Assembly: GCA_949743265.1 (NCBI GenBank)
Contig: CATJSX010000034.1
Span: 1 to 36,296 of the forward strand
Direction: 5' to 3'
DNA length: 36,296 bases
Source of the DNA: an uncultured Peptococcaceae bacterium
GTDB lineage: Bacteria > Bacillota > Peptococcia > Peptococcales > Peptococcaceae
Shown: positions 17,703 to 24,424 of the stretch, one piece after another
How the letters are laid out: the number at the start of each line of letters is the position of its first letter
How positions within the stretch are numbered: the first letter of the stretch is position 1
The notes under the pieces: model-generated
What the model was told of the DNA's origin: nothing
The model's input: the letters and a program-made list of their open reading frames with translations, nothing else
Database searches by the model: none
Translations under genes and position numbers: made by a program

Positions 17703-17737
17703 AATGGGCAGTTATCTATGATAGATAACTGCCCATT
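17703..17737. terminator. Hairpin between convergent nif3 and hydrolase genes
   Basis: A perfect 16-bp stem (17703-17718 with 17722-17737) with a three-base TGA loop sits between convergent genes and touches the hydrolase stop codon. The T-tracts are weak on both sides, but the stem is strong and the position fits a shared terminator. Confidence 0.7.
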
Positions 17738-18475
17738 CAACTTTGTAGATATTCAATCAGTTTACTTGCATACTCGTCGCTAAATTCATGTAAATATTGA
17801 CCATGTCCCATATTTTCAATTTCAACATCAATCAAAGCAGGCAAATATTTTTTGAGTAAAGCGGCACTCTTTTTGGGGTAGTATTCATTTGAACCTCTCC
17901 AGAATAAGACGGTTCCCTTGTAATTCTTTATTTTTTCAGGAATACTGTATCTATAGATAAATTGACATGCGTTTTTTATAGTGCTTGCGGTAATATTAGG
18001 ATAAAGCATTTCAATAATGCTGTTATTATCTTTTCCCATTACAGCAGCTAACATAAATTTAGGAATTGTTTTTCCGTTTTGTATTCGCTCTATCGCTTTG
18101 CAGAAAATATATTCATAAGGTTTCGCCAATAAACCTATTTTTGTTAGAAACGCCGCATCCAAATGGGTTTTTGTGACATTGACTCTCCCTCTTCCTATAA
18201 TTTCTACAGCCATTGTCGCCCCATGGAAAACCCCGACAAACAATACAAATGACCAGATAAGTTATTTATAATATAATTTTCTATTTCATCACAATTTTTC
18301 TCAAGGCTAACCAGTTCATCTGTTTGTTCACTGTGTCCGTCCACTTCCGCTAATATCACATAATAATCTGATAATCGCTTCAAAATCGGTTCATAGCAGA
18401 GCATCGCTGTAGATGCCATTCCGTGTATCAATAGTACCGCTTTATTTTTTCATGACCAAAACACAAAAGATTCAT
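17737..18475 (-). pseudogene. Alpha/beta hydrolase gene with two frameshifts
   Basis: The reading frame is broken twice, each time by one missing base in a homopolymer. From the ATG at 18475 (GGGAGG five bases upstream) the frame gives MNLLCFGHEK and then shifts at an A6 run (complement of 18445-18450); one more A would continue NKAVLLIHGMAST. The second shift is in a G4 run (18219-18222), just after the nucleophile elbow GFSMG; one more G would continue ATMAVEIIGRG. Restored, it would be a 246-residue alpha/beta hydrolase with the nucleophile Ser in GFSMG and a late His in NMGHGQYLHEF. A good promoter precedes it. Recent inactivation and sequencing error are both possible. Confidence 0.8.
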
Positions 18476-20515: not shown

Positions 20516-21257
20516 CATGATAGGCTATTTTTTAGCCTTCGGTTTATTGATCGTTTTTTGGCATTTAGGCAGTTTAGCGCTTAATAAATCTTTTCTGCCG
20601 ACACCACTAGCTTCTTTTCAGGCTTTCGTCATTGCTTTTAGCGAAAAGGAATTGCTTTACCATTGGCGTATTAGCGCTTTAAGGATTGTGATAAGCATTT
20701 TGTTGGCTTTTGTGACGGCAATGCCTCTGGGTCTTTTTATGGGACGCTCGCCAAAGGCTGATCGTATTCTGGGTCCGTTGGTCTATTTACTTTACCCTTT
20801 GCCCAAAGTAGTTTTTTTGCCTATTATTGTGGTTTTATTGGGTTTGGGCAGCGCACCGAAAATCTTTCTCATCGCGTTGGTTATTTTTTTTCAGATTATC
20901 GTCGTTACTCGCGACGCAGCGCGAAGTATTCCTAATGATAGTATTTTGTCCATGCGTTCGTTAAACGCTACGCCTATGTCAATGTATTATCATTTGATTC
21001 TCCCTTACTGCCTGCCCAAAATTTTAACCTCTCTTCGTGTAACTTTGGGTACAGCAGTAGCTATTCTGTTTTTTGCTGAAACCTTCGCCTCTTTTGACGG
21101 CTTAGGCTATTTTATTCTGGAAGGCATGGAAACGCGTAACTATCCTGATATGTATGCTGGTATTATTGCCCTAGCGCTTCTAGGCATGATGCTGTATTGG
21201 TTAGTAGATTATCTGGAATATTGTTTATGCCGTTGGCAAAAGTATGAAAACAGCTGA
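20505..21257 (+). CDS. ABC transporter permease (SsuC/TauC/ThiX type)
   Basis: The 250-residue protein has about six membrane segments and a BPD_transp_1 domain with the EAA-loop region DAARSIPNDSILSMRSLNATPMSMYYHLILPYCLPKILTSLRV. The N terminus (IGYFLAFGLLIVFWHLGSLAL...FLPTPLASFQAF) is typical of the SsuC/TauC group. The ATG at 20505 has GAGGTGAT upstream and overlaps the ATPase gene by 11 bases. Together the three genes make a full importer. No further gene follows in the operon; a hairpin at 21326-21365 may end it. Confidence 0.92.
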   Translation: MRRNMIGYFLAFGLLIVFWHLGSLALNKSFLPTPLASFQAFVIAFSEKELLYHWRISALRIVISILLAFVTAMPLGLFMGRSPKADRILGPLVYLLYPLPKVVFLPIIVVLLGLGSAPKIFLIALVIFFQIIVVTRDAARSIPNDSILSMRSLNATPMSMYYHLILPYCLPKILTSLRVTLGTAVAILFFAETFASFDGLGYFILEGMETRNYPDMYAGIIALALLGMMLYWLVDYLEYCLCRWQKYENS

Positions 21258-21325
21258 CAGCTTACTCCAAAAGTAGGTTGCTGGCTACTTGTATAAAAAA
21301 ATAAAAAATTTTTAATGAATTTTTT

Positions 21326-21365
21326 TAGCAGATAAATTCGGCTTAACTGCTGGTTTTATCTGCTA
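21326..21365 (+). terminator. Hairpin ending the ABC transporter operon (weak)
   Basis: An 11-bp stem (TAGCAGATAAA and its complement) with an 18-base loop lies about 70 bases after the permease stop. The following bases are only moderately T-rich, so termination efficiency is uncertain. Confidence 0.4.
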
Positions 21366-21405: not shown

Positions 21406-21434
21406 TTGACTTTTTAATTGACATTTTTTATAGT
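21406..21434 (+). promoter_or_regulatory. Promoter of the leader and mini-protein unit
   Basis: TTGACT (21406-21411) is followed after exactly 17 bases by TATAGT (21429-21434), a good sigma-A promoter. Transcription would start near 21441. A second TTGACA lies at 21418-21423 but has no good -10 at the right distance. Confidence 0.65.
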
Positions 21435-21440
21435 TAAAGT

Positions 21441-21543
21441 GTTAAGAGAAATAAATCGCCTATACGATGTTTTCTTATTCATGTCACCCTCCGTTTAATA
21501 CTACATTGAACGGTTTTCCCGACCTTCGGGGCGGGTCTTTTTT
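21441..21543 (+). ncRNA. Terminated leader RNA or small RNA (about 100 nt)
   Basis: Between the promoter at 21406-21434 and the 59-codon gene lies an intrinsic terminator: arms CCCGACC (21518-21524) and GGGCGGG (21529-21535) with one mismatch, a UUCG tetraloop and a T-run to 21543. It stands 51 bases before the start codon, so most transcripts should stop there. That makes this an attenuated leader of the mini-protein gene or a free small RNA of about 100 nt. I do not recognise a known riboswitch class. Confidence 0.5.
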
Positions 21544-21594
21544 GGAGAATCAAACACTTTAAATAATGGTCATTTTGGAGAGGAGTTATGTATC

Positions 21595-21774
21595 ATGACG
21601 AACTTATTTGATGAATTCATTAAAGCGAAAGAGGACCACATCATTGACACTTACTGCATTGGTGATGACTGCGATGATTGCGAAGAATTAGCGCAAGGTG
21701 GCGTAATTAGAAAGATCAAAAAAATGTATGTTGATAACATTGCTGAAGAAATTATGCACCCAGATCATGAGTAA
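21595..21774 (+). CDS. Small acidic Cys-bearing protein, 59 residues, unknown function
   Basis: The open frame of 59 codons starts at ATG 21595 with AGGAG nine bases upstream and ends in TAA. The protein begins MTNLFDEFIKAKEDHIIDTY and has a central C21-x4-C26-x2-C29 cluster in a run of aspartates (CIGDDCDDCEE), then a basic stretch (RKIKKMYVD) and an acidic end with two histidines (MHPDHE). The cysteines could bind a metal or respond to redox state. It has no signal peptide or membrane segment. It is flanked by a terminated leader upstream and a strong terminator at 21813-21859, so it is a stand-alone unit. I do not recognise the family. Confidence 0.65.
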   Translation: MTNLFDEFIKAKEDHIIDTYCIGDDCDDCEELAQGGVIRKIKKMYVDNIAEEIMHPDHE

Positions 21775-21812
21775 TAATAATTTCGTTTTAGTTAATTAAG
21801 TAATGAATAATA

Positions 21813-21859
21813 AAAGCGTATGTTGCTATGAAATTTATTTTCATAGCAACATACGCTTT
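21813..21859. terminator. Strong bidirectional terminator
   Basis: A perfect 21-bp stem (21813-21833 with 21839-21859) with a five-base loop sits between the mini-protein gene and the convergent hydrolase gene. A T-rich stretch follows in the plus direction and an A-rich one precedes it, so both genes can use it. Confidence 0.9.
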
Positions 21860-21862
21860 ATT

Positions 21863-23922: not shown

Positions 23923-23962
23923 GAAACAACCATTAAATTTCTCAAATAAAGGAGTCTTGTTC

Positions 23963-24424
23963 ATGAAAAGCAAAATTTTGCTAGCAATATTGGTTTCGGT
24001 CGGATTTTGGTTTTCTTCTCTTGTAATATTAAACGAACCAGAAGAGGCTATCGGCGGCGTAGGAACTTATAGCAGCAACGATGTCATGGTTTTAGCCAAG
24101 ATGATTCATGGTGAAGCTAGAGGAGAGCCGTATATTGGTAAGGTAGCTGTAGGCGCAGTAATACTTAATCGTGTTAAAGATAAAAAATTTCCTGATTCGG
24201 TTTATGGCGTTTGTTTTCAGCCCGGCGCTTTTGACGCTGTTAACGATGGACAATATTATCTGGAACCGGATAAATCGGCGATTAACGCCGCTAAAGCAGC
24301 TATAGGCGGCTGGGATCCTACTTATGGAGCACTTTATTATTGGAATCCAGAAACAGCAACCAGCAAATGGATTTGGAGTCGCAAGATTGTCACGCAGATC
24401 GGCAAACACGTTTTTGGTAACTAA
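23963..24424 (+). CDS. sleB: Spore cortex-lytic enzyme SleB-like, catalytic domain only
   Basis: The 153-residue protein has an N-terminal hydrophobic export segment (KSKILLAILVSVGFWFSSLVIL) and one Hydrolase_2 (SleB/CwlJ) domain. The family signature is MIHGEARGEPYIGKVAVGAVILNR with the likely catalytic E51, then FPDSVYGVCFQPGAFDAV and GALYYWNPETATSKWIW. SleB degrades spore cortex during germination. The usual N-terminal peptidoglycan-binding domain is absent, so this is a short form. AAAGGAG is eight bases before the ATG at 23963. It is followed after 20 bases by ypeB, its usual partner. Confidence 0.9.
   Translation: MKSKILLAILVSVGFWFSSLVILNEPEEAIGGVGTYSSNDVMVLAKMIHGEARGEPYIGKVAVGAVILNRVKDKKFPDSVYGVCFQPGAFDAVNDGQYYLEPDKSAINAAKAAIGGWDPTYGALYYWNPETATSKWIWSRKIVTQIGKHVFGN

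Follow-up and report, generated by a model that had tools for sequence, protein, structure and literature searches.

How a 59-codon gene is expressed when an intrinsic-terminator-like hairpin separates its start codon from a strong promoter-like site, and whether such an arrangement is a regulatory switch, are the questions raised by positions 21406 to 21774 of contig C34, the 36,296-nucleotide stretch that we refer to as the window. The genome to which it belongs comprises 3.04 Mb in 208 contigs at 98.4% completeness, and the nearest named relative that we found is a metagenome-assembled genome (MAG) titled uncultured Clostridia bacterium. Because the window carries sleB, ypeB, a stage III sporulation gene and an Asp23 gene, we take the host to be a spore-forming Firmicute-like bacterium. 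The SleB-type cortex hydrolase, which is encoded at 23957 to 24424 and adjoins ypeB, is only 155 residues long and aligns to the C-terminal part of its family profile (82–200 of 201). The initial annotation of the locus described an attenuation-controlled gene and held that a lack of conservation of either the leader or the small protein in relatives would count against that description.

Architecture of the locus

The elements on which the argument turns are the following.

21406 to 21434, plus strand: sigma-A-type promoter, TTGACT-17-TATAGT
21441 to 21517, plus strand: structured leader RNA, from its folding energy (−15.5 kcal/mol for 21441 to 21516) and pair probabilities
21486 to 21536, plus strand: alternative fold predicted in silico, in which ACCC (21486 to 21489) pairs with GGGU (21533 to 21536) and closes a three-way junction
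21518 to 21543, plus strand: intrinsic-terminator-like hairpin, CCCGACC-UUCG-GGGCGGG, followed by TC and T6
21577 to 21585, plus strand: ribosome binding site GGAGAGGAG, 9 bases ahead of the ATG
21595 to 21774, plus strand: open reading frame for an acidic 59-residue protein with the cluster C21-x4-C26-x2-C29, supported by its coding score and a homologue
21813 to 21859, no strand assigned: long perfect palindrome, probably a two-way terminator (−31.8 kcal/mol for 21810 to 21862)

Scored with a sigma-A weight matrix, the promoter is one of the four sites on both strands of the 36-kb window that reach at least its value, and it ranks second on the plus strand, in keeping with the good promoter initially annotated. 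A simple consensus scan returned 4 promoter-like sites against 6.3 expected; since this is no local excess, the evidence for the promoter lies in its rank and position and not in its mere presence. The matrix found no sigma-A promoter between the terminator (21543) and the reading frame; the runner-up site nearby, at 6.6 compared with 11.4 for the promoter, overlaps the start codon. Expression of the small gene is therefore probably by transcripts that pass the terminator. The sequence AAAGTGTT directly after the −10 box (21436 to 21443) is complementary to AACACTTT directly after the terminator (21553 to 21560), a pairing that would be possible in RNA only with a transcription start earlier than expected.

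From the position of the promoter, transcription is expected to start near 21441, which gives a leader of about 77 bases up to the hairpin at 21518. This agrees with the roughly 80 bases originally proposed, and the same description proved accurate for the hairpin with its T-run, for the 51 bases between the end of that run at 21543 and the ATG at 21595, and for the small gene with its own ribosome binding site and cysteine cluster. The hairpin itself, CCCGACCUUCGGGGCGGG at 21518 to 21535, is GC-rich, with a best fold of −8.8 kcal/mol for 21517 to 21537, and takes twelfth place among the 109 hairpin-plus-T-run sites of the window, which makes it a terminator of moderate strength. The UUCG loop ascribed to it can form as C(UUCG)G with an A·G mismatch, but at −7.2, where the best register of these 18 bases reaches −8.1, it is one among several near-equal registers and not the computed optimum.

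Folding and conservation of the leader

The leader contains a 5′ hairpin at 21446 to 21476 and a 9-bp hairpin at 21491 to 21513. Its folding z-score is −2.71 for the whole leader, −3.26 for the leader without the terminator (21441 to 21516) and −3.07 for 21485 to 21543, and in each case none of 200 shuffled sequences folded as well. When the 57 bases downstream are included the fold becomes ordinary (z −0.57), and a fold of equal quality is reached by 18 of 644 GC-matched windows of 103 bases, so that the leader is only moderately unusual among real sequence. Two competing folds were computed, a three-way junction at −26.4 kcal/mol and the simple terminator at −24.3 kcal/mol, and both use the 3′ arm of the terminator. 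Neither is a clear antiterminator, because the three-way junction, too, ends in a stem beside the U-run.

The leader belongs to no RNA family that we could recognize, consistent with the earlier remark that no riboswitch class was evident: Rfam 15 gave no match in the window at the gathering threshold, and among the 26 sub-threshold matches that it gave between 21250 and 21880 at E values up to 10 none was credible. A covariance search in relatives, which had been proposed as a check on the attenuator, went against it. BLAST with the leader against 46 genomes of the class, one of which represents the genus, matched only the leader's own genome, and the covariance model gave weak matches in three other genomes with E values of 0.18–0.78 that we take as chance. 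A second copy within the same genome was found neither by BLAST (best other match E = 0.026 over 21 bases) nor with a covariance model built from this one sequence (best other match E = 3.46).

The small protein and its homologue

In all likelihood the 59-codon frame is a genuine gene. At 0.250 bits per codon, its coding score is on a par with the average over 125 gene segments of the window (0.243); of 104 non-gene frames just 2 outscore it, one of the two being an Asp23-family gene. Searches of Pfam and PHROGs found no family for the protein, and PDB sequences, phages, plasmids and viral contigs gave no match. The single NCBIfam match, below threshold, is to the Clo7bot Cys-rich peptide family (TIGR04333), which resembles residues 8–31 weakly (E = 0.045) but scores 13.6 bits where 31 are required. 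A predicted structure with a mean pLDDT of 61 was too poor for a fold search. In the titles and abstract openings of the literature we found nothing on this gene.

We found one clear homologue, a 91-residue protein from another genus of the same family, encoded on CALXSY010000019.1 of the uncultured Clostridia MAG BRZ_HS bin73 (L004:1498-1773). It was detected at E = 1.6e-4, a value that applies to one genome in a search of 100 relatives, and the reciprocal search gave E = 1.2e-3; the local alignment scores 79, and none of 20,000 shuffles scored as high, the maximum being 60. In their N-terminal halves the two proteins have L-x3-F-[IL]-K-[AS]-KE-x-H-x-I in common, and each carries one CxxC pair. 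The homologue lacks the equivalent of C21, so that what is common is the CxxC and not the full C-x4-C-x2-C cluster. The computed alignment places C29 opposite C26 of the homologue; in our reading both cysteines of the pair are in register, at the cost of one more indel. The shared histidine and the CxxC pair suggest, from sequence, a metal-binding or redox role. The homologue is 32 residues longer than the window protein and does not match TIGR04333, and protein-family searches with it gave weak matches or none. Its gene likewise has a sigma-A-type promoter directly upstream (TTGACT-17-TATACT), but its leader is short, at about 57 bases, and has no terminator.

Elsewhere the protein is scarce. 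At E ≤ 1 there are matches in 14 of the 100 relatives' genomes, of which only its own genome and one other (G005) fall below 0.01; the remainder we take as chance. The small gene occurs in 2 of 46 genomes of the class, and in the phylum 3 of 398 genomes match. We did not count the third of these (E = 0.0104) as a relative, as it extends over no more than the homologue's tail (columns 56–90) inside a 391-residue frame. A single-protein scan of a collection of genome contigs found no homologue, and a two-sequence scan of an 84,980-species collection, which used two short patterns that distant relatives may escape, returned only the homologue already known. As far as these sequences reach, the family is very rare and lineage-restricted, with two detected members. 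The protein is thus conserved in a relative where the leader is not, and of the two absences named at the outset only that of the leader was found.

Genomic neighbourhood

In the window the small gene lies behind a sulfonate/NMT1-type ABC operon whose stop codon is at 21257, while the gene of the homologue lies directly behind cydABDC (L036:56-6273). Of 13 genomes of the family, 11 have the ABC permease and only 2 the small gene, so the small gene has no stable neighbour; in the genome of the homologue, permease and small gene are on separate contigs (C10 and C19). A link to the ABC operon was rejected on these grounds, and the small gene is a separate unit. The association with cydABDC is seen in the genome of the homologue, but the cydAB locus of the window's own genome has no small-protein match within the 9 kb read. 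In the window, trmK, NIF3 and the ABC operon stand in one row from which cyd is absent; in another genome (G003, L070:111-8610), cydABDC adjoins trmK- and NIF3-like genes, the non-cyd identities being judged by eye.

Downstream, the palindrome at 21813 to 21859 sits between the small gene and a convergent hydrolase gene. On the minus strand at 17737 to 18431, two adjacent frames resemble, by eye, a single alpha/beta-hydrolase-like protein split by a frameshift.

How the gene may be expressed

We consider it about an even chance (roughly 0.5) that this is a stand-alone, lineage-restricted gene, served by a promoter of its own and a terminator-ended leader, whose protein is made from read-through. 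Transcription would run from the promoter at 21406 to 21434 through the structured leader into the intrinsic terminator, where RNA polymerase would frequently terminate around 21543 and release a short transcript of some 100 bases. Only transcripts that read through would yield the 59-residue protein, and these would end at the palindrome. What the sequence itself shows is the set of elements, a gene-like codon usage, a homologue and a leader rich in structure; the transcription start, a working terminator and read-through as the source of the mRNA we infer. The rank of the promoter, the coding score, the same type of promoter at the homologue, the terminator and the z-scores of the leader all support this reading. 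Against it stand the terminator-free leader of the homologue, the failure to find the leader in relatives or at a second place in its own genome, the 18 of 644 windows that match its fold, the loss of signal with the next 57 bases and the moderate hairpin.

The structured RNA, about 100 bases long and with a promoter and a terminator at its ends, might instead be the product of an independent small RNA gene (21406 to 21543), in which case the small-protein gene would be transcribed on its own, perhaps with a different sigma factor. We regard this as rather unlikely: the stretch from 21543 to the reading frame contains no sigma-A promoter and, by eye, no sporulation-sigma consensus, and our searches of relatives and of the rest of the genome found no copy of the RNA.

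The hairpin might instead be the terminator of the upstream ABC operon, the promoter-like site being a coincidence or a weak internal start. We found no canonical terminator with a U-run downstream of the operon's stop codon; the stem-loops near 21258 to 21280 and 21326 to 21365 both lack a T-run. The second of these, which lies between the operon and the promoter, has an 11-bp stem (TAGCAGATAAA...TTTATCTGCTA). The hairpin lies about 260 bases beyond the stop codon, however, the promoter is among the four best in 36 kb, and the small gene would be left without a promoter, all of which make this account unlikely.

We think a true attenuator of a new riboswitch-like class, controlled by a ligand, a protein or the ribosome and with the three-way junction and the simple terminator as alternative states, similarly improbable. 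The locus does resemble known terminator attenuators (riboswitches, T-boxes and protein-bound leaders) in its order of promoter, structured leader, terminator, ribosome binding site and gene, and an intrinsic terminator between promoter and start codon is present at the level of sequence. Its two folds lie within 2.1 kcal/mol of each other and have the terminator's 3′ arm in common. It differs from the known systems in having neither an Rfam family nor conservation, no demonstrated antiterminator, since the alternative fold also places a stem next to the U-run, and no leader peptide with a Shine-Dalgarno sequence, the ATGs at 21467 and 21481 both lacking one by eye. Of the attenuation-controlled gene initially annotated, the anatomy, the real gene and the structured leader therefore stand, while conservation, a clear antiterminator and a leader peptide with a ribosome binding site were not found and the homologue does without a terminator; the leader is an anatomically plausible candidate for an attenuator, which would be species-specific. 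We consider it very unlikely that this leader is a regulatory RNA of recent origin, confined to the genus and either riboswitch-like or bound by a protein, which doses a previously undescribed CxxC small-protein family through two registers of the terminator hairpin and perhaps responds to metal or redox state. The missing conservation lowers the chances of this reading, for which the place of the homologue beside cydABDC would be a hint of a connection with respiration or thiols.

Were the leader regulatory, it would be an example of a control RNA of a single lineage that comparative screens would miss; otherwise, there would be nothing out of the ordinary about this small orphan gene, whose leader would simply contain a leaky terminator. 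The protein itself belongs to a family of two detected members.
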